Of a DNA stretch of 64,000 nt, positions 5,407-34,077 are shown piece by piece; positions within the stretch are counted from its first letter, which is position 1; each line of letters begins with the position of its first letter. The notes below the pieces were generated by a model. That model did not search any database, was not told the origin of the DNA, and was given only the letters and a program-made list of their open reading frames with translations. Made by a program: the position numbers and the translations under genes. This DNA is from Bacteroidales bacterium. Lineage in GTDB: Bacteria; Bacteroidota; Bacteroidia; Bacteroidales; Lentimicrobiaceae. The stretch spans positions 1 to 64,000 of the forward strand of contig JAEUTG010000029.1 in assembly GCA_016788045.1 (NCBI GenBank), read 5' to 3'.

Positions 5407-6105
5407 ATGAAAACAATAAACAGGTATGCAGTTTTTTTCTTTTATCTGGGACTGGTCGCTATACTGTCCGTTGGCTGCAAAAAGGAGGATAATCCCGACG
5501 ATCATACAGGAACTATCAAAGATAAAGACGGCAATGTTTACCACGCCGTTACCATCGGTACCCAGACCTGGATGGTTGAAAATTTAATAACTACCAAATA
5601 CCGCAATGGCGACCCTATACCGCAGGTTGCTGATGACGCTCAATGGGCCGGCCTGTCCACCGGGGCATGCTGCTTCTATGACAATAATTCAGCCAACGGC
5701 AGTACCTATGGCGCTTTATACAACTGGTATGCCGTGAACGACCCCAGAAACATCGCCCCGGAAGGATGGCATGTCGTTTCCATGGAAGAATGGAATATCC
5801 TGAATACCTTTCTTGGAGGAGAACTGGTTTCCGGAGGTAAATTGAAGGAAACCGGAACAACACACTGGGATAGTCCCAACACCGGGGCAACCGATGAGGC
5901 TGGATTTAAAGGGCTGCCCGGGGGAGGAAGATCCCTGGATGGCCTTTACAACAGCATCGGGCAATCCGGACTCTGGTGGACTACCGCAGAAAGCAATCCG
6001 GATAATGCCTGGCCACGAGGACTATCATACAATTCGGCATTGATATTCAGTAGCATGTGGCTGGATAAGAACAGTGGATTTTCGGTGCGGTGCATCAAAG
6101 ATTAG
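5407..6105 (+). CDS. FISUMP-domain lipoprotein
   Basis: 232 residues. A lipoprotein signal ends at Cys24 (LSVGCKKEDN). The rest is one Fibrobacter succinogenes major paralogous domain. It starts with KDKDGNVYHAVTIGTQTWMVENL, passes through YNWYAV, PEGWHVVSMEEWN and GFKGLPGGGRS, and ends with the family signature GFSVRCIKD. Such domains are abundant on the surface of Bacteroidota and Fibrobacter. Their role is not established, and the fold is distantly related to C-type-lectin or formylglycine-generating-enzyme-like domains. The gene lies between two T9SS propeller genes (37 bases after the first, 74 bases before the next). Confidence 0.85.
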   Translation: MKTINRYAVFFFYLGLVAILSVGCKKEDNPDDHTGTIKDKDGNVYHAVTIGTQTWMVENLITTKYRNGDPIPQVADDAQWAGLSTGACCFYDNNSANGSTYGALYNWYAVNDPRNIAPEGWHVVSMEEWNILNTFLGGELVSGGKLKETGTTHWDSPNTGATDEAGFKGLPGGGRSLDGLYNSIGQSGLWWTTAESNPDNAWPRGLSYNSALIFSSMWLDKNSGFSVRCIKD

Positions 6106-7379: not shown

Positions 7380-7423
7380 ATAACAGTTAATCAAACCAAT
7401 TGCAAACCAATAACTTTCAGAAA

Positions 7424-8116
7424 ATGAAAAAAAACAATTTGTTGCTTTTCGCTTTGATTTTGGGTATTTTTATAGTTCTTGTCACTGCCTGCGGAAAAGA
7501 TGGTGATGAAGTTAAAAACAAGGACTACGATTATTTTACCGATCAGCGGGATGGTGAAATGTATAAGACCATAAAAATTGGTGATCAGGTCTGGATGGCC
7601 GAAAACCTGCGGTACCTGCCCTTCGTGACTGAGCCCGACTCAGGTTCGCCGACGATTCCGCTGTATTATGTGCTGGCTTACGAAGGAAACGATCTGGCAG
7701 AAGCCAGGGCTTCTGACTATTTCGATACTTACGGTGCCCTGTACAATTGGGAGGCTGCAAAAATTGCCTGCCCTTCGGGTTGGCACCTGCCCACGGAAGC
7801 CGAGTGGATGCAGCTGGCCGATTTTGTCGGCGGGGCAGGCACAGCCGGCGATAAGCTGAAAGAGAGCGGCACAGCGCATTGGGGCCTTATAAATGACGAA
7901 ATTACGGATGAATTCGGTTTTACCGCCCTTCCTGGTGGGTGTTGCCTCGCAAACGGGCTTTTTGATGGACTGGAAAGTTATGCAGCCTGGTGGACAGTTA
8001 CCGGAATTGATACTGCCCAGGCTTCCTACATACTTATGACGCATAATGGTACAGGAATGTACACAGGTATGAGCATCAGAGAGCATGGTTTCTCGGTGCG
8101 TTGTGTGAAAGATTAG
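7424..8116 (+). CDS. FISUMP-domain lipoprotein
   Basis: 230 residues from the ATG at 7424, preferred over a TTG at 7400 because it opens directly into the lipoprotein signal MKKNNLLLF. The lipobox is VTAC with Cys23. The FISUMP domain runs from DYFTDQRDGEMYKTIKIG to the terminal GFSVRCVKD, with typical internal motifs WMAENLRYLP, YNWEAAK, PSGWHLPTEAEWMQL and GFTALPGG. It is a clear paralogue of the gene at 5407 and repeats the propeller-then-FISUMP order, 44 bases after the preceding T9SS gene. The role is not known; surface binding is the usual guess for the family. Confidence 0.85.
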   Translation: MKKNNLLLFALILGIFIVLVTACGKDGDEVKNKDYDYFTDQRDGEMYKTIKIGDQVWMAENLRYLPFVTEPDSGSPTIPLYYVLAYEGNDLAEARASDYFDTYGALYNWEAAKIACPSGWHLPTEAEWMQLADFVGGAGTAGDKLKESGTAHWGLINDEITDEFGFTALPGGCCLANGLFDGLESYAAWWTVTGIDTAQASYILMTHNGTGMYTGMSIREHGFSVRCVKD

Positions 8117-19430: not shown

Positions 19431-21230
19431 TTAATGCCGTACCGGGATTTTCTTTGTAATCCTGTTGTCAGCTGATATAATATTCAACAGATACAATCCT
19501 TCTCTGAAGTCCGAACTGTTGACTGTTTTTAGTTGGCCCTCACGGATTTCACTGTATTCCGCTGAATAAATAATCCTGCCGGTAACATCGGTGATGGTCA
19601 GTTTGATGGTTCCTTTCACATTGTCGCCAAACCGAATGTTGATCTTATCGCTGGCAGGAACAGGAAACACACTGAAGCTGCTGAGGCTGAGGTCGCCTGC
19701 CGAAACCAGGCTTGCCGAGGCCTGATTTGAGTAAACATCGGTATAAACAGCATTGCGCAGGCCTGTATTACAACCGTCCGGGTTCACGATTTTAACCATA
19801 TAGGCGATGTCACCTCCAGGGGCATTGAAATCGGTGAAAGAACCGAAACTCGCCGAAACGGTGGCAATCTGCTCAAAGGGGCCATTGCCTGATCTGCGCA
19901 TGATTTTGTATGAATTGTAGTCAAAGCCCAGGTAAGGTGTCCAGATCAGGTTCCAGTTGCCTCCCACGCCCTGGTTGATGGTCAGGTGAATGGTCTGGTG
20001 GAAATCTCCTGCCGGGAATACCCTGTTTTCGCCATCCCTGAAACCAATTTTGTAACGGTAAGGTCTCATGGAAGGGTTGGATTCAGGATCGGTAACCATG
20101 GGTATATCCTGATAACTCACTGTATCAATGACGTCATAAATATTTGCTTCATCGGTTTCCTTATAGATCAGGAAATCGGCGATCAGATCCGAGACGGGCT
20201 TTTCCCAGACGATTACATTTTGATTTGTCAGGCTGTCTACTGTAACCATGCATACCGGAGTTTCAGGGAATGGCATAATTGTAAAGGCTTCGCTCACTGT
20301 ATTGGATGAAAGTGCGTAGGAATCTGTAATCCGGATGCGGCATTCATCTGAATTCACATAGGGGGTGAACCATTCAACACTTCCTGAATTCCCCTGGCTG
20401 CTTCCATTGGCGATGACTTCCCAGGTTGCACCGTTGTCATCGGAGAATTCGAGGTAATTGGCAGACGAAAAAGGGTTTTCGACTGTCCAGCTAAGGGTGA
20501 AAAGGCTATTGCTCTTTACGATTTCTCCCCCTAAAGGCGAGGTGAAGGTGTACACGGGTAAAGGACTGATCCTGAACACCTGGCTCAGGCCGAATTGTGA
20601 TGGATTCTCAGTATTGTAGAGTTTCAGGATACACGAATCAGCAGGGATTTCAGATAATTCAATGTAGGTATAGCTCATCAATGCGTTCAGATTCTGGGCT
20701 ACGGGTGTAAAGGTGAGTCCGTTATCGACCGAGATTTCAGCGTTCAGCAGGGCAATACCGGGCACGTTGGTAAACCAGTAAACCTGGGCAGGGCTGTTGG
20801 CAAAAACGGCCGAAGTGCCGGATGGCTCCCAGATGCTGATGGGTGGAACGTAAACGGTAAAAGGTGCATCACTGACATCGCTGGCTTCAGGGTTTATAAA
20901 ATCAGTAATTCTCAGTATCGCGTTGGAAGTTGAAATATTTGGTGGGCCCACCGAAGCAATGCCTCCGGTTGGCCCGGAAGGAACCTGTCCCATATACCAC
21001 CAGTTGATTCCGCCATCATAGGAAAATTCGATGTTTACCACACTGCTCAGGTTTTGTCCTGTCCAGGTGGTTGTTTCAGACGTTCCATAGGTCCATGTCT
21101 CTCCGCCATTGGGAGTTTGTATGGTTAGCGTCTGCGCAAAGACCGGTATGTTGATAAAAGTTGAAAAAATGAACATGCTGAAAACAATAGGTTTCAGGTA
21201 TTTTGGAAGGCGGGCGTAATTTGGCATCAT
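19431..21230 (-). CDS. T9SS cargo protein, PNGGETW repeat and Fn3-like type (tandem paralogue A)
   Basis: 599 residues from the ATG pair at 21230/21227. An upstream in-frame start (21290) adds non-signal sequence and spoils the match to the 598-residue neighbour. The order is: signal peptide; three Ig-like units beginning QTPNGGETWTYGTSETTTW, EPSGTSAVFANSPAQVYW and TSPLGGEIVKSNSLFTLSW (Kre9/KNH-like NGGE pattern, each ending in RITD or FTI); an Fn3-like region (about 330-500); and a T9SS sorting domain (FSVFPVPASDKI ... TKKIPVRH). It is predicted to be a secreted adhesion or structural protein. It lies 191 bases downstream of its paralogue. Confidence 0.83.
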   Translation of the reverse strand: MMPNYARLPKYLKPIVFSMFIFSTFINIPVFAQTLTIQTPNGGETWTYGTSETTTWTGQNLSSVVNIEFSYDGGINWWYMGQVPSGPTGGIASVGPPNISTSNAILRITDFINPEASDVSDAPFTVYVPPISIWEPSGTSAVFANSPAQVYWFTNVPGIALLNAEISVDNGLTFTPVAQNLNALMSYTYIELSEIPADSCILKLYNTENPSQFGLSQVFRISPLPVYTFTSPLGGEIVKSNSLFTLSWTVENPFSSANYLEFSDDNGATWEVIANGSSQGNSGSVEWFTPYVNSDECRIRITDSYALSSNTVSEAFTIMPFPETPVCMVTVDSLTNQNVIVWEKPVSDLIADFLIYKETDEANIYDVIDTVSYQDIPMVTDPESNPSMRPYRYKIGFRDGENRVFPAGDFHQTIHLTINQGVGGNWNLIWTPYLGFDYNSYKIMRRSGNGPFEQIATVSASFGSFTDFNAPGGDIAYMVKIVNPDGCNTGLRNAVYTDVYSNQASASLVSAGDLSLSSFSVFPVPASDKINIRFGDNVKGTIKLTITDVTGRIIYSAEYSEIREGQLKTVNSSDFREGLYLLNIISADNRITKKIPVRH

Positions 21231-21421
21231 TGTTTTATTTTTTTGTTTAAACATTAAACGAAATAAATCGGCAAAAAATTCAAAGCGCATTTGCTATATT
21301 GAGAATTGTGGAAATATTTATTTCCTGCATCATTTGTTCAAATAATACGGCGTCTGGGCTTTTTCCCGTTTGTATTCTTCTACCTCCATCCTGTATTTTC
21401 AGATCGGATATCGTTCAGAAT

Positions 21422-23218
21422 TTAATGCCGTACCACAATTTTTTTTGTAATCCTGTTGTCGGATGAAATAACATTCAACAGATACATGCCTTCATTAAAG
21501 CCTGAACTATTTACTGTTATCAAATTTCCACCGCGCATACCGCTGTATTCATCTGAATGAATGATCCGGCCGGTAACATCGGAAATGGTCAGTTTGATCG
21601 GTCCTTTGACATTGTCTCCGAATTGAATGTTGATCCGGTCGTTGGCCGGAACCGGATAGATGCTGAAGGAATTATCCGGCATCTGTGCCACAGAAACGGC
21701 ATTCAATGAAGCTTCATTGGAACGGACCTGAAGATTTTCATTGTCACGGGAGCCGGTATTGCAGTTTCCGGGCCTGTCAATGGCCACAACGTAAGCTACA
21801 TCGCCGGCCGGAGCATCAAAATCGGTGTAGGAGTAGAAACTGGAGGAAATGGTGGCAATTTGTTCGAATTCTCCATTGCCTGATCTGCGCAGAATGTTGT
21901 ACGAAGAATAGTCAAATCCGGCATAGGGTGTCCAGATCAGGTTCCAGTTGCCACCCACACCCTGGTTGATGGTCAGGTGAATGGTCTGATGAAAATCACC
22001 GGCGGGGAAAACCCGGTTCTCATTGTCGAGGAACCCAACTTTATAGCGGTAAGGCCTTATGGAAGGATTCGACTGAACATCTGTAACCATGGGGAATTCA
22101 CTGTACGCCACGGTGTCGATAACCTCATAAACGTTCGCCTGGCTGGTTTCCCGGTATACCAGAAAATCAGAAATAAGCTCTGGTGAAGGCATTTCCCACA
22201 TGATGATGTTGTGGTTGGTGAGGCTGTCAACCGTAACCATACAAAGTGAGATCTCAGGAAAAGGCATGATGGTAAAAGCTTCGGAGGTATCCACAGATGT
22301 CAGGGAATATAAATCCCTGATGCGTATCAGGCATTCTTCCGAATTGATGTTGGGGGTATTCCAGACGTAGCTTCCGTAGGTTCCCGTGCTCATTGCATTG
22401 TTAATATACACCCATGTTTCTCCATTGTCGGTTGAATACTCGAGATCACAAATATCAGCATAGGGGTTTTCAATTGTCCAACTGATTGTCAGCGGGCTGT
22501 AAACATTCACAATTTCTCCGCCGGCAGGGGAGGTCAGGGTGTAAACCGGCACCGTGCTGATGGCAAAAGGCGTGCTGATGCAATTCTCGGACGGATCCGC
22601 AGCATTGGAAAGCCTGAGAATACAGGTTTCGGTTGCTGTGTCGGAAAGGGTAAGGTAAGTGAACCCGGTGAGAGCGTTGATGTTCTGGGCTACAGGCAAG
22701 TAGGTAAGTCCGCCGTCGGTCGATATTTCCGCATTGATCAGGGTGATGTCCGGGTCATTGACGAGCCAGTTTACATAGGTGGGTACATCGGCGAAAACAA
22801 AAGATCCGGTAGCCGGCTGATATATGTTGATTGGTGAAAAGGTAATGGAAAAAGGCGCATCACTGATGTCGCTTACCGCAGGATTGAAGAAGTCGGTAAT
22901 TCTCAACAGGGCGTTTGTAGTAATGGTATTGGGTACAAAGACCGGGGCTATGCCTCCGTTCGGTGCAGAAGAAAGTTCACCAAAGTAAAACCATTGATTT
23001 CCTCCGTCATTTGATATTTCAAGCCTAAGGATACTGCCAAGGGCTTGTCCTGTCCAGCTGACTTCTTCATAAGTTCCTCCGTTCCAGATTTCTCCGCCAT
23101 TCGGACTGAGTAAGGTTATACTCTGCGCGTATAAATTGTTAGCCTGCGCAGTTGCAAAGAGCAACGCAATGGCAATGGATTTTACATATCTCAGGGTGCC
23201 GGGGTATCTCTGTTTCAT
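21422..23218 (-). CDS. T9SS cargo protein, PNGGETW repeat and Fn3-like type (tandem paralogue B)
   Basis: 598 residues with the same layout as the neighbour at 19431: signal peptide ending LYAQ; Ig-like units starting LSPNGGEIWNGGTYEEVSW, QPATGSFVFADVPTYVNW and TSPAGGEIVNVYSPLTISW; an Fn3-like segment with the shared stretch HQTIHLTINQGVGGNWNLIW; and a T9SS domain (FSIYPVPANDRI ... TKKIVVRH). The Fn3-like and C-terminal parts are more alike between the two than the Ig-like part, suggesting diversification of the binding region or gene conversion at the 3' end. The role is unknown. Confidence 0.83.
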   Translation of the reverse strand: MKQRYPGTLRYVKSIAIALLFATAQANNLYAQSITLLSPNGGEIWNGGTYEEVSWTGQALGSILRLEISNDGGNQWFYFGELSSAPNGGIAPVFVPNTITTNALLRITDFFNPAVSDISDAPFSITFSPINIYQPATGSFVFADVPTYVNWLVNDPDITLINAEISTDGGLTYLPVAQNINALTGFTYLTLSDTATETCILRLSNAADPSENCISTPFAISTVPVYTLTSPAGGEIVNVYSPLTISWTIENPYADICDLEYSTDNGETWVYINNAMSTGTYGSYVWNTPNINSEECLIRIRDLYSLTSVDTSEAFTIMPFPEISLCMVTVDSLTNHNIIMWEMPSPELISDFLVYRETSQANVYEVIDTVAYSEFPMVTDVQSNPSIRPYRYKVGFLDNENRVFPAGDFHQTIHLTINQGVGGNWNLIWTPYAGFDYSSYNILRRSGNGEFEQIATISSSFYSYTDFDAPAGDVAYVVAIDRPGNCNTGSRDNENLQVRSNEASLNAVSVAQMPDNSFSIYPVPANDRINIQFGDNVKGPIKLTISDVTGRIIHSDEYSGMRGGNLITVNSSGFNEGMYLLNVISSDNRITKKIVVRH

Positions 23219-23930
23219 TGTTTACTGTTTAAGTTTCAGTGTTAAACGCCGAATCTGAAACATTGTTCATGGATGGTCGGGTGTAAACCTCTCCGGAGGT
23301 TCACTTCCGAGTATCCTTTGGCCGGCTAGCCGATCCACTAAGGAAATAAAAACCGCAGGTAAATAATTCACTATGAGAACATATCTTTAATTGTTTGAGG
23401 GCTGTATTACTTCTGTAAGATTCAGCCATTTGTGGTAGTGCTGCCTCTGAAACCTGATTGTCAATGTGGATGCTTGCCTGATTGTTGTTTAATCAGGGCG
23501 CCCAATGAATGAAACAAAGTCAGGATAATTCAGCCAATGTGAGGTTCTGAATGCATAAGCGGAATTCACCCTGATTCATCGGATCTGCATCGCACTGAGA
23601 AACCATTTTCTTATGGTTGGAATTCCTTTGCAATCAAAGGAAAACAACCCAGGTTCCTTCAACCACAGGTGAGCCGCAGTGCACATATTATTAACAAAAC
23701 TTTAACATTCTGACATAAACAACTTTTCCGGGTTGCTGGTTAAAATGTTGCAGGCAATAAATCACAATCCGGGAAAGCAAACGGATTTTCATAGAAAAAA
23801 TCAGGCTGACCCATCCATTACTTCATTGAACTATAATGCCACTTCCTGCAGACTTTTCCCGTTCGGGTCCGGCAGTTACAAATTTTTGATTTTCTCATGG
23901 TCTTTATCTTATTTTAAACAGGAGGTTTGA
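23219..23930. other. Long intergenic region between divergent genes
   Basis: About 710 bases serving as upstream region for both neighbours. It holds a small hairpin (AACCTCTCCGGAGGTT, 23286-23301). An AGGAGG ribosome-binding site stands just before the ATG at 23931. No gene, riboswitch or full promoter could be recognised. Confidence 0.5.
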
Positions 23931-25808
23931 ATGAAATCAATACTGGTTTCTTTAGGAGTATTTGTAATATTTATTCTGCTCAACAGTTGCGAAACAGCGG
24001 AGAAGACTGTAGTTTCTTCAGGAAAGAGTCTCAGTAAGGTTGTTCAGACTATAGACACCGTGCGCAAAAAGTTTATTGAGATAGCCAGGGCTGATTTGTC
24101 ACTTTCGCCAGGGGAAGCGCTGGCGAAGACAGAAGAATGGCTGAGTCAGCAACCAGAGGTCAAACAGTCGTTTGTGATGGATGATGCATTTATCAGATTT
24201 ACGCTTCAATCAGGGTTGGAAGGATACTTTACCATCAATCTGACGGATGAGAACGGATTAAGCCTGACAAGAGGAGGTTCAGAAGTAGCATTGGACAATC
24301 CTTTGACGCTGAAAGTCAGATCTGAAAACGTTCTTACCAATAAAAAAGTCCTGATTTTTTCTCCATTTGTCAGTGATACCTGGTATGCAAGTTTATACAA
24401 GGAAGCTGAGGCTGAAATCATCGAAAATAAAATTAAAAGTTATGACAATGAATTTGAAGTCACCAACTTATATAAAGCGGATACTAGCGATGGGAAACTT
24501 GCAAGGCAAATAAAGGAACTTGAATCAATGGGGGAATATGGACTTGTAATCCTCAATACCCATGGATTGCCTGACGGCTTTTATACATCGAGTTGGGTTT
24601 ATGGATTGTCATCACAGTTTGATACTACAGAAGCTGCTATAAGAGAAGGAATTGACTACTTAAGACCCGGCACCTACGACCAGATTCTGGAAGGCTATTT
24701 TAAATTTGCTTACTATACGAACCTTGCCAATGTTCAGAACTGGCAGGAATTTCTCGATGAACGGTTTATGGATCCTCCTGTTTTATATCTGGTTGTAACA
24801 TCCAAGTTTATTAAGTCAATCCCATCATTGGAGAATACCATCATTTTTGGAAATATGTGTTATTCGGGATGGAACCTTGAGCAGGTTGAAAAACCAAAGC
24901 CAGGTGGTGGATCCTATAAAATTGAATACGAACCAATCCGTGAAGCGTTTCTCTCGCACAATCCCATTGCCTATTATGCTTATGCTTATCCTGACGGGAA
25001 ATCTGCCAAAGTCGGGAATAAGTTTGCCAAGGCGATGGAAGACTCATTAACCCGTTCCCTGATAAGAGATCTGGACAGTACCGGCAGGGCATACAGAAAT
25101 TCGGAGGTTGAAGAGTTCACTGGTCAACAGGTAAATGATCCGGTCAGTCCGGATATGCCTTTCAAACTCTTCGGCGCAGAAAACTACAGTTACGACAACT
25201 GTCAGGAGGAAATTTTTGATGTACGTGATGGTCAAAAATATCAGGTAGTCTGTATAGGAGATCAGGTCTGGATGGCAGAGAATCTGCGCTACAGCGGCAA
25301 CATAACGCAGATCATTGATGAAGACTCATGGGTCGCCTTGTGGAATGATGGCAATCCGATTGAGCAACCTGCCTGGAGCCATTACAACAACGACCCTGCC
25401 AATGATGCGGTTTATGGCAAGCTGTATAACTGGCATGCCGCGAACACAGGCCAGCTTTGCCCAGCCGGCTGGCATATCCCGACGGATGAAGAATGGGGCG
25501 AATTGATCAGTTTTCTGGGTGGCAGAGTTGACGCAGGGGGTAAAATGAAGAGCACAACCGGATGGAACCCGCCAAACTTCAACGCTACCAACAGCAGTGG
25601 CTTTTCTGGGTTCCCTGGTGGTTTGCGTAGTATCCTCGATGGTCAGTTTTCTGAGCTTGGCTCCAGTGGTTATTGGTGGAGTTCTACTACGATGAGTACG
25701 ATAGAACAACAGGCTTATTTTATCAGACTTAACAGTATTACAGACTTTGCTGACAGGTTCAATGGAAATAAATTATCCGGAATGTCCTGTCGGTGTGTGA
25801 AAGATTAA
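23931..25808 (+). CDS. Lipoprotein with caspase/gingipain-like (clan CD) domain fused to FISUMP domain
   Basis: 625 residues. Lipoprotein signal with Cys20 (LLNSCETAEK). A helical segment (25-75) and a small beta domain (78-130) precede a region (about 137-400) with the block order of clan CD peptidases: beta strand KVLIFSP, then YGLVILNTHG (candidate catalytic His211), then NTIIFGNMCYSG (candidate catalytic Cys310), then AYYAYAYPDGKSAKVG. A FISUMP domain fills 430-625 (VRDGQKYQVVCIGDQVW ... GMSCRCVKD). I have not seen this fusion described. The clan CD call rests on the His-Cys pattern only. A strong AGGAGG leader precedes the start. The gene stands alone, upstream of a terminator. Confidence 0.65.
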   Translation: MKSILVSLGVFVIFILLNSCETAEKTVVSSGKSLSKVVQTIDTVRKKFIEIARADLSLSPGEALAKTEEWLSQQPEVKQSFVMDDAFIRFTLQSGLEGYFTINLTDENGLSLTRGGSEVALDNPLTLKVRSENVLTNKKVLIFSPFVSDTWYASLYKEAEAEIIENKIKSYDNEFEVTNLYKADTSDGKLARQIKELESMGEYGLVILNTHGLPDGFYTSSWVYGLSSQFDTTEAAIREGIDYLRPGTYDQILEGYFKFAYYTNLANVQNWQEFLDERFMDPPVLYLVVTSKFIKSIPSLENTIIFGNMCYSGWNLEQVEKPKPGGGSYKIEYEPIREAFLSHNPIAYYAYAYPDGKSAKVGNKFAKAMEDSLTRSLIRDLDSTGRAYRNSEVEEFTGQQVNDPVSPDMPFKLFGAENYSYDNCQEEIFDVRDGQKYQVVCIGDQVWMAENLRYSGNITQIIDEDSWVALWNDGNPIEQPAWSHYNNDPANDAVYGKLYNWHAANTGQLCPAGWHIPTDEEWGELISFLGGRVDAGGKMKSTTGWNPPNFNATNSSGFSGFPGGLRSILDGQFSELGSSGYWWSSTTMSTIEQQAYFIRLNSITDFADRFNGNKLSGMSCRCVKD

Positions 25809-30831: not shown

Positions 30832-33800
30832 TTACCTGAGGATTTCTACCGGGAAATCATTCCCAAACCCATAACTGGCCGGATATTGAAGCGTTCCGCT
30901 GTACTTTTTCATCAATTCCGGAACACCTTGCTGCAGATAGCTCTTAAGTCCGTTTACGGTAATCATTTTATCGGTGGCAGCAGAACCCTTCAGTGCTTCG
31001 AGCAGCACATAGGTAAAAGCACCATGGCCCAGCTGCGAAAATTCGTTGGCATATTGCTGGGCGCCGCTGGCTGCCATCCAATGGGTTCCGGTGCTGCGGG
31101 CAACCACAGCAATGGATTTCTGCTGGTCACCATCGTTGCTTAACATCGCCTCAAATGCTCCGGCGCTCTGACAGGCATCGAGGATAAAGAGCTGCTTACG
31201 GGCCTGAATGTCAACGGCATATTGTTGCAGTAACTTTGCAGAAAAACCTTTTCGTTCCAGTTCAGCCTGCACATTTTTCAGGTCACTCACATCGTTGGGG
31301 ACCAGGTAGAATTCTTTGTCTTTACCGATAACACCATGCCCGGCATAATAGAAAACAAACACATCGGCCGCTCCAGCCGATTTCTTTACTTCATCAAAGG
31401 CCTGTTGAATTCCCTGCTTGTTGGCCAGCCCATCGGTAACAAAATGGGTGCTGACATTGGCAATGATGGATTTAACATCTTTTTCAAGCTCCTGTTTGAA
31501 AGCAGTAGCATCGGCCAGGGCATAGTTGAGGCTCATGGCCGGATTCTGGTACTGGTTGATGCCCACCACTATCAGGTGGAGGGTGGCGTTTTTGTCGACC
31601 TGGTCAACAACTGTGTTACCGGGCAATCCAGGTTTAACAGGCACAGGCTGGTTGCCTGAATTGTAGTTGATGGTAATTTCATCGGGCCTGCTTTCGGTAC
31701 GCTGGCTGTTGATCGCAACCGCTCTGAACTTATTTACTCCGGGCAACAGATTGATGGTGTATTTTTTCGAATCGGAACCATCATCTTCTGTAACAAAAAG
31801 ACCACGGGTAGCCAGATTCACGACTTTGCCATTATGAAAAAGCCTGATTTCATCCACTGCATCGCCGGGAGCAGTGGCAACTACCGTGAGTTCTGCTAAC
31901 CCGGATGTATTGCTGTATTCAGCATTCCCCTCCGGATTTCGCTGTTTTTCTGCATACAGAATCTTTACATTTACCTCTTTCATCACATCGTCAATTTTCG
32001 GAGGAAAGAACTTCTCACCGTTGATTTTCCGGCGAAGAAGATCGGGTGTGTAAAACCGCTCAAAAAAGCGATCCAGTGTGATTACGCTGTTGTTTCTGAC
32101 AAAATACAATTCTGCCATACCGTTTGGGCTGCCATCAAACAGGCTTTCCGGCGAAACAAAGACATATTCATTGGTCTTATCAATGAAGTAGTAGGTGCCG
32201 AAGAGCTCTCCGGAATTTGTTTTCCACACCTGAACGCCTTTTTGGGTTGTGGGGGTATACATGATTTCACCGTCATCTGCAAAATTTGCGCTCATGAAAT
32301 ACTCGTTGTTCAGCGAGGTAATTTCCTGTTTTATATTCCCTTCAAGGTTGTAAAGAGAAATATTGTAGGTGGCTTCCTGATAAATTACTTCACGTCCCAT
32401 AGCAATCAAACCCTTTGCATGGCTGTAACCTAAATATTTCAAAGAGGTCGTTGGTATCTTCCGCTCAAAAGACAAATCTGTGGCACTGTATATCCTCAAT
32501 TCATTTTCATCACGACTGGCAATCAGGTAATAATGGCTTTCACCTAAAAAATGTACCGTGGCATTGCCGTTTTCACCGGCTTTCTGAACCAGAAGTTTTT
32601 TAGTATCCATATCATACACGCAACGGAATGTTCCGTTTTCAGTGGGTATGATGCAGGCAAAATACATGCCATCGCTGCTGGCTGATTTTCCCTTGACAAA
32701 AGACTCCGGTGTATTAATGTACTTTGTAAAGGCCCCGGAAGCAATATCCAGCACACCAATGTACTTCGACATGCCGTTTTCAATGAAGATTTTCGTTCCG
32801 GACTTATCAAAAAAGAAATAATAATGCGATTCTATTCCGGGTGGAAAAGGTATTTTTTTGATGATTTTTCCGGTGATGTTATCTGCAACTGTGATCTGCT
32901 TTCCGATGCCGGCGATCCTCTTTCCGTCGGGACTGTAGATCGGTGTTCCTTGCACAGGAATTATTTTTTCAGGCCGGTAGGTTTCCGGATTAAAACTTCT
33001 CGACAAGTCATCCTCAGTACCGATGTTGAATACGGAGTCAGGCAAGGGATGCTGGTTAACCATGCCAGCGTAGTAAAAGGCTTTAAAATCAGCGATTCTG
33101 TTGGTAAAGCCTGTTCGGGTGCTGTTTAACCCGGGGTCATACACTTTCAGGATTTTGAAATCATTGTAGGCCACTTTGCCAGCAGGTAGCGCGGTAGCTG
33201 CGTTTGCCCAATATATACTGGTTTCTCCAAAAAACGGTGGATCATTGATTTTTTTAATCAGCGACAAATCGCTCATTGAATACAAACCGACCACGTTTGT
33301 CTGCTTTGCATAGTCATTCTCAAAAACAAACACCCCTTTGTCTGAAGGGACAACAAACTGCAGGTTGGTGGTAAATGTCTTACTCTTTATAAGATTTCCG
33401 CTCTGCGCATCATACAAACTGAGGTCATTTTCACTGGCAAGTACAACCTTCCCCGAGGTGTGATCGTAGAAGCTGCTGATTCCTCGTTTATCTTCCTTTT
33501 TATATTGAACACTTTTCCCGGTTTCGGTATTGACAAGGCACCAGTTGAATCGGTTCAATGTTACAATCCGGTTGGGCTCAACCCAGTATATTTTTGGTTC
33601 GCCGTAGTCGATCTGGGTTCCGGCTTCAGCTATTTGCCTGATATATTTTCCGGTAAGGGCATTGTATATATTTACGTTGTTGTACTCAATGGTAGCAATC
33701 TGCTGATTGTCGGGCGAGAGTGCAACCGGATAGTAAACGGAAATCTCACAAATCAGTTCTCCGGTTTGAATGTTGTAGTAAAACACACCATTTGAGGTTC

Positions 33801-34077
33801 CGATAAGCACATTTTTATTGTCGGTTGAAAACTGCAGACTGATGTTTTTGTTTTCCCTGCTGCTGATTTTCATCTCTATGGAATAGAGTTGCTTTTCAAG
33901 CAGTGCGTCCCAGATAACAATGGTTTTATAGGCGGCAGTCGCGATCAGACTCCCGTCAGCGGAAGTGGTCATCTGATCGATATTGGCTGCGTTGCCCTGG
34001 GGAACAACCAGCCGGGTTTTCTGAGCCTGAATCTGTATTGTGCAGATCGCCAGAATTATAAAGAGAATTCTGCCCAT
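30832..34077 (-). CDS. Exported WD40-repeat caspase-family (C14) peptidase
   Basis: 1081 residues. It has a signal peptide (about 1-18, ending IQAQ). An N-terminal WD40/quinoprotein-like propeller region (20-650) contains TSADGSLIATAAYKTIVIWD, LSPDNQQIATIEYNNVNIYN and SPDGKRIAGIG. A linker beta domain (about 700-800) follows. The caspase p20 unit (about 820-990) has HLIVVGINQYQNP, catalytic His914 in FYYAGHG and catalytic Cys969 in LFILDACQSAG; a p10-like segment ends at 1081. Both dyad residues are present, so activity is plausible. Known relatives are bacterial orthocaspases, usually with Arg/Lys specificity. The gene lies 34 bases downstream of a C1-peptidase gene, so the two are probably one transcript. 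Confidence 0.9.
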   Translation of the reverse strand: MGRILFIILAICTIQIQAQKTRLVVPQGNAANIDQMTTSADGSLIATAAYKTIVIWDALLEKQLYSIEMKISSRENKNISLQFSTDNKNVLIGTSNGVFYYNIQTGELICEISVYYPVALSPDNQQIATIEYNNVNIYNALTGKYIRQIAEAGTQIDYGEPKIYWVEPNRIVTLNRFNWCLVNTETGKSVQYKKEDKRGISSFYDHTSGKVVLASENDLSLYDAQSGNLIKSKTFTTNLQFVVPSDKGVFVFENDYAKQTNVVGLYSMSDLSLIKKINDPPFFGETSIYWANAATALPAGKVAYNDFKILKVYDPGLNSTRTGFTNRIADFKAFYYAGMVNQHPLPDSVFNIGTEDDLSRSFNPETYRPEKIIPVQGTPIYSPDGKRIAGIGKQITVADNITGKIIKKIPFPPGIESHYYFFFDKSGTKIFIENGMSKYIGVLDIASGAFTKYINTPESFVKGKSASSDGMYFACIIPTENGTFRCVYDMDTKKLLVQKAGENGNATVHFLGESHYYLIASRDENELRIYSATDLSFERKIPTTSLKYLGYSHAKGLIAMGREVIYQEATYNISLYNLEGNIKQEITSLNNEYFMSANFADDGEIMYTPTTQKGVQVWKTNSGELFGTYYFIDKTNEYVFVSPESLFDGSPNGMAELYFVRNNSVITLDRFFERFYTPDLLRRKINGEKFFPPKIDDVMKEVNVKILYAEKQRNPEGNAEYSNTSGLAELTVVATAPGDAVDEIRLFHNGKVVNLATRGLFVTEDDGSDSKKYTINLLPGVNKFRAVAINSQRTESRPDEITINYNSGNQPVPVKPGLPGNTVVDQVDKNATLHLIVVGINQYQNPAMSLNYALADATAFKQELEKDVKSIIANVSTHFVTDGLANKQGIQQAFDEVKKSAGAADVFVFYYAGHGVIGKDKEFYLVPNDVSDLKNVQAELERKGFSAKLLQQYAVDIQARKQLFILDACQSAGAFEAMLSNDGDQQKSIAVVARSTGTHWMAASGAQQYANEFSQLGHGAFTYVLLEALKGSAATDKMITVNGLKSYLQQGVPELMKKYSGTLQYPASYGFGNDFPVEILR

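Follow-up and report, generated by a model that had tools for sequence, protein, structure and literature searches.

Gene organisation and domain architecture

The window, i.e. the whole 64 kb stretch of Bacteroidales DNA analysed here, carries on its forward strand an intact open reading frame of 625 amino acids (23931..25808), with a Shine-Dalgarno-like AGGAGG (23920..23925) 5 bases upstream of the ATG. The encoded protein comprises, in order, a lipoprotein signal peptide (23931..23990), an N-terminal helix-helix-three-strand domain (residues 34-105; 24030..24245), a linker, a caspase/gingipain-like alpha/beta region (residues 137-424; 24339..25202), recognised by AlphaFold2, Foldseek and a family profile, and a FISUMP domain (PF09603, residues 440-624; 25248..25802). 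The same architecture is common to the full-length relatives described below (L001, L002, L028, L034, L037, L043, L045 and L050).

The signal peptide ends in a lipobox of the sequence LLNSC, whose Cys20 (codon 23988-23990) is present in 13/13 of the alignment rows covering the position, and by these sequence features the protein is a predicted bacterial lipoprotein. The first-pass annotation of this DNA had already taken Cys20 for the lipid-anchor residue and had noted a block with LNTHG and His211, followed after about 100 residues by FGNMCYSG with Cys310. Both readings hold, with His211 (24561..24563), the predicted catalytic histidine, lying within VILNTHG, Cys310 (24858..24860), the predicted nucleophile, within IFGNMCYSG, and the two lying 99 residues apart. 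The FISUMP domain, also recognised earlier and placed at residues 430-625, is a strong Pfam match (E = 5e-39, 135 bits vs a cut-off of 33.9); its start had been set too early, as the match begins at residue 440.

The N-terminal domain is modelled by AlphaFold2 with pLDDT values of 80-94, is kept by the full-length relatives and is possibly a prodomain. In the linker that follows, the position of Arg114 in Arg114-Gly-Gly (24270..24278) is occupied by R/K-G in 15/15 covering alignment rows, with RGG, RGA, RGT and KGG as the variants in the relatives, while most of the flanking linker columns are variable. Arg/Lys114-Gly is a candidate processing or activation site. No Pfam or NCBIfam family matches the middle region between the lipobox and FISUMP, and searches of this region against PDB sequences with the single protein and with 6-row and 17-row profiles gave no meaningful match; hits to the RuBisCO small subunit, PSMD14 and GH17 were rejected as chance. 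The protein was also unmatched by PADLOC.

Two more FISUMP proteins are encoded at 5407-6105 and 7400-8116 (+), alternating with other open reading frames. Adjacent similar secreted proteins, apparently tandem duplicates, are encoded at 19431-21290 and 21422-23218 (-), the first with a Por secretion tail. About 5 kb away on the opposite strand, a gene at 30832-34077 (-) encodes a 1081-residue protein with WD40 repeats and a bona fide Peptidase_C14 caspase domain. No tRNA or Rfam features were found in the 64 kb window.

Distribution of the family

The family has about 15 to 17 distinct members, with loci that were fetched twice counted once (L001 = L027; L002 = the G456 loci), and is rare and patchy within the phylum of the window. 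A scan of bacterial genomes yielded two loci, L001, with 72% identity to the query, and L002, on a contig of Candidatus Kapaibacterium. In L002 (1138-9854) four complete family genes and one partial copy stand in tandem; the partial copy starts just after its THG motif and is apparently truncated. Profile searches added members in the Kapaibacteria, where they occur in 6/13 genomes of the order and often in tandem arrays, a member from the window's own class (L050) and three distant relatives that lack FISUMP (L029, L030, L107). Matches were obtained in 7/395 genomes sampled across the phylum, the window's own genome being among these 7 and another (G108) contributing a TPR-CHAT protein that lies outside the family. 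The family was not found in 18 sampled genomes of the same genus, which gave weak matches only. The weak matches L004-L013, from genomes of the same genus and order, were attributed to chance, the best of the same-genus ones (L004) being a DNA polymerase III delta-like reading frame; L053, a glycoside hydrolase/beta-lactamase-like protein, was likewise dropped as a chance profile match. At L001 (332-8441) the family gene lies within what appears, on reading of the open reading frames, to be a cluster of genes for arginine biosynthesis, and at its end it shares about 22 bases with the following reading frame.

The FISUMP domain and its association with caspases

FISUMP is common in Bacteroidota, with at least 43 of the 60 sampled relatives carrying the domain, and to our knowledge it has no assigned biochemical role. 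Resemblance of FISUMP (Fib_succ_major) to DUF1566/Lcl_C by HHsearch and its occurrence as a DGR target domain have been reported (PMC4159848), and DGR variable repeats lie most often within a C-type lectin fold (PMC10907252). In the present analysis the similarity between FISUMP and Lcl_C (DUF1566) was sub-threshold, in 5/10 domains, and no solved relative of FISUMP was found by sequence. By analogy with these reports, FISUMP is most likely a C-type-lectin-like binding module. A DGR origin of the FISUMP end of the present gene was considered and rejected, as no sequence near-identical to the FISUMP 3' end recurs in the 64 kb window and no template/variable repeat pair is present there.

The genome of the window holds 12 FISUMP matches (11 besides the query) and 5 C14 matches. 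At one of its loci (L062, G000:C43, 2910-12828) there is a WD40-C14 gene with an overlapping FISUMP gene; the cluster also includes two further C14 genes, and behind one C14 gene lies a FISUMP-like gene that is divergent and sub-threshold. In relatives, C14 and FISUMP are fused in a single protein at L064, with an apparent signal peptide, and at L065, with an apparent transmembrane segment, both domains being above the cut-off in each. At each of L066, L067 and L068 a FISUMP gene comes after a C14 gene; at L069 the C14 gene precedes an FGE-sulfatase gene, beyond which lie two FISUMP genes. C14 genes adjoin FISUMP genes at five loci including L062. Across the 60 genomes, at least 6 FISUMP matches have a C14 match no more than 3 kb away, in every case on the same strand, where 0.50 would be expected (Poisson P 1.4e-5) under a null that assumes even placement in genomes that are themselves related; the count includes the own-genome C43 match, added from a separate genome search, and is 5 without it. 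Outside the genus of the window at least 4 pairings were observed against 0.38 expected (P 6e-4). These pairings suggest that the two domains work together. The first-pass proposal that a peptidase would give FISUMP an enzymatic partner is strengthened by such fusions and operons in so far as it concerns the partnership, while the peptidase activity itself is a prediction.

It is quite possible that FISUMP is a generic cell-surface or adhesion module attached to a wide range of unrelated proteins and functionally unconnected with caspases, an explanation that rivals the reading of the FISUMP part of the protein and leaves the protease part untouched. The 11 other matches in the genome agree with it, the N-terminal regions being unrelated among those read, as does a weakly resolved FISUMP tree that does not force repeated recruitment or separate fusion origins and in which independent fusions are uncountable. 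Such a module would not be expected to lie near or within C14 genes as often as was counted above, always on the same strand and in different architectures, nor does it account for the FGE-sulfatase gene in the equivalent place of the L069 operon. The C14-FISUMP pairing parallels the metacaspase-FGE-sulfatase architecture described in 33/671 sequences (PMC3501461).

Bacterial metacaspases and orthocaspases (Peptidase_C14) of this kind share with the query a caspase-like domain and a presumed C-type-lectin-like domain in one protein; they differ in that the catalytic region of the query is not C14 by profile and FISUMP replaces FGE-sulfatase. C-type lectin proteins that are diversified by DGRs and carry an orthocaspase or CHAT domain are also known (PMC7517822, PMC10907252). 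As in the query, their caspase-type domain is N-terminal and the lectin-type binding domain C-terminal, and Fib_succ_major has itself been reported as a DGR target domain, whereas the query has no template/variable repeat pair within the window. A link to caspases was absent from the titles and abstract openings of papers naming Fib_succ_major, in a search that covered few of the subscription journals.

Conservation of the putative catalytic residues

Clan CD enzymes use a His-Cys dyad in blocks such as those around His211 and Cys310, and loss of either residue in most homologues had been named at the outset as evidence against such an assignment. No such loss is seen: His is present in 17/17 relatives covering the position and Cys in 18/18, by alignment and direct reading with L107 included. 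L040, which begins after the His, is outside the His count, and the Cys of L030, misaligned in alignments A4 and A5, was counted from the sequence FSACELG read directly. T210, H211 and G212 are identical in 16/16 covering alignment rows. The relatives that keep both residues span about 18-77% identity, including the FISUMP-less L029, L030 and L107, and the Cys is retained throughout while its context shifts from GNMCYSG through NNSCESN to FSACELG/FSACQLG. Judged from the alignments, with His, T210 and G212 invariant and the Cys in every relative, the motifs are not the product of chance. The spacing between His and Cys in the family is 78-101 residues, longer than in caspases and gingipains because of an insertion at about residues 216-300.

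A caspase-fold protein devoid of peptidase activity, i.e. a conserved binding scaffold whose His and Cys have a structural or some other role, is an unlikely explanation of this pattern. The long insertion between the two residues would fit it, as would the fact that no substrate is known, and inactive clan CD homologues, the pseudo-orthocaspases, are known from bacteria (PMC6426788). Invariance of both residues in all relatives, at identities that fall below 20% and in differing Cys contexts (NMCYSG, NSCES, SACELG), argues against it.

Predicted fold and relation to known clan CD families

The first-pass annotation had tentatively assigned the region of residues 130-425 to clan CD, a proposal to which a predicted fold unlike that of the caspase-haemoglobinases would be contrary. 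Structure prediction points to a fold of the caspase/gingipain type. A first model from 6 alignment rows (model 1), of low overall confidence and with FISUMP poorly modelled, has clan CD structures as 49/50 of its best PDB neighbours by Foldseek (47 caspase chains and 2 SAVED-CHAT chains). A second model, by AlphaFold2, of residues 1-424 from 17 rows (model 2; pLDDT 80.6, pTM 0.82) has 40/50 clan CD chains among its best 50, most of the others being azoreductases. Gingipain R (1cvr) is the highest-probability entry of the latter list (probability 0.89), and rank 1 is held by a flavodoxin-type azoreductase. The Foldseek E-values, at 0.006-0.2, include none below 0.001, and the TM-scores are below 0.5, so these results are consistent with clan CD and are not proof of it. 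The core of model 2 consists of alternating strands and helices in which, by DSSP, His211 follows strand 205-208 and Cys310 strand 304-306; in the model, His and then Cys thus each come after a core beta-strand, as expected for clan CD. Taken with the conservation of the two residues, the presence of a clan-CD-like region in the protein is well supported.

Profile searches against Peptidase_C14 and C25, proposed earlier as a check on this assignment, were negative: neither PF00656 nor PF01364 matched above the Pfam cut-off in the query or the family, while the neighbouring protein at 30832-34077, serving as a control for the C14 search, matched Peptidase_C14 at 1e-14. For CHAT (PF12770) there was no Pfam match and no full-domain profile match. 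The A4 family profile matched the TPR-CHAT proteins L051, L052 and L054 at E-values of 7e-7 to 7e-4 in the His half, and profile-profile comparison placed the THG motifs of the family and CHAT in register over about 50 residues with a probability of 12-84% depending on the rows used; this alignment covers the His-containing half and leaves the Cys half uncovered. Profile-profile similarity to C14 was negligible. The region is thus clan-CD-peptidase-like in its predicted anatomy and, by the sequence tests run, falls outside C14, C25 and CHAT.

Of these families, CHAT shares with the query the THG block and, in the distant members L030 and L107, a SACELG-like Cys block; the query differs in the absence of a PF12770 match and of TPR repeats, in being a predicted exported lipoprotein and in a similarity confined to the His half. 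Gingipain R (Peptidase_C25) belongs to Bacteroidota, like the query, and is an extracytoplasmic clan CD cysteine peptidase, as the query product is predicted to be, and it provides the top-probability match of model 2; the query has no Pfam C25 match, is lipid-anchored by prediction, has a FISUMP C-terminus and shows a longer His-Cys interval. A different Rossmann-like enzyme fold, flavodoxin-like or another alpha/beta type, bearing a THG and a Cys block by coincidence is improbable. The azoreductases among the Foldseek matches, at rank 1 with model 2, and the weak Foldseek E-values speak for it; against it stand the 49/50 clan CD neighbours of model 1, the location of His and Cys at strand ends expected for clan CD and the CHAT similarity in register at the His.

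Proposed function and significance

The gene product is probably a cysteine peptidase with a lipid anchor, which belongs to a rare and new clan-CD-like family and carries a FISUMP domain for binding, targeting or regulation. Signal peptidase II would process the precursor at Cys20 and leave the protein tethered by its N terminus, presumably at the cell surface, with the N-terminal domain (34-105), a flexible linker bearing Arg/Lys-Gly, the caspase-like domain with its His211/Cys310 dyad and the C-terminal FISUMP following in that order. FISUMP would either present the protease with a ligand or substrate, perhaps in sensing, or regulate it; the same logic of a protease joined to a binding domain is found in the metacaspase-FGE-sulfatase fusions and the DGR-diversified orthocaspase and CHAT proteins. 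Activation may include self-cleavage at the basic residue 114, a plausible site should the enzyme share the preference for basic residues that many clan CD members have.

More tentatively, FISUMP might repeatedly serve caspase-fold proteases on the exterior of Bacteroidota cells as their sensor or targeting partner, paired with at least two protease families, and such proteins might be the surface counterpart of the C-type-lectin/caspase conflict systems that operate inside cells. An extracytoplasmic place would be unusual for bacterial caspase homologues, and the region studied here represents a probable protease family missed by the current profile libraries. The repeated link between FISUMP and caspase-type proteases provides a concrete, testable hypothesis for the role of the FISUMP domain.
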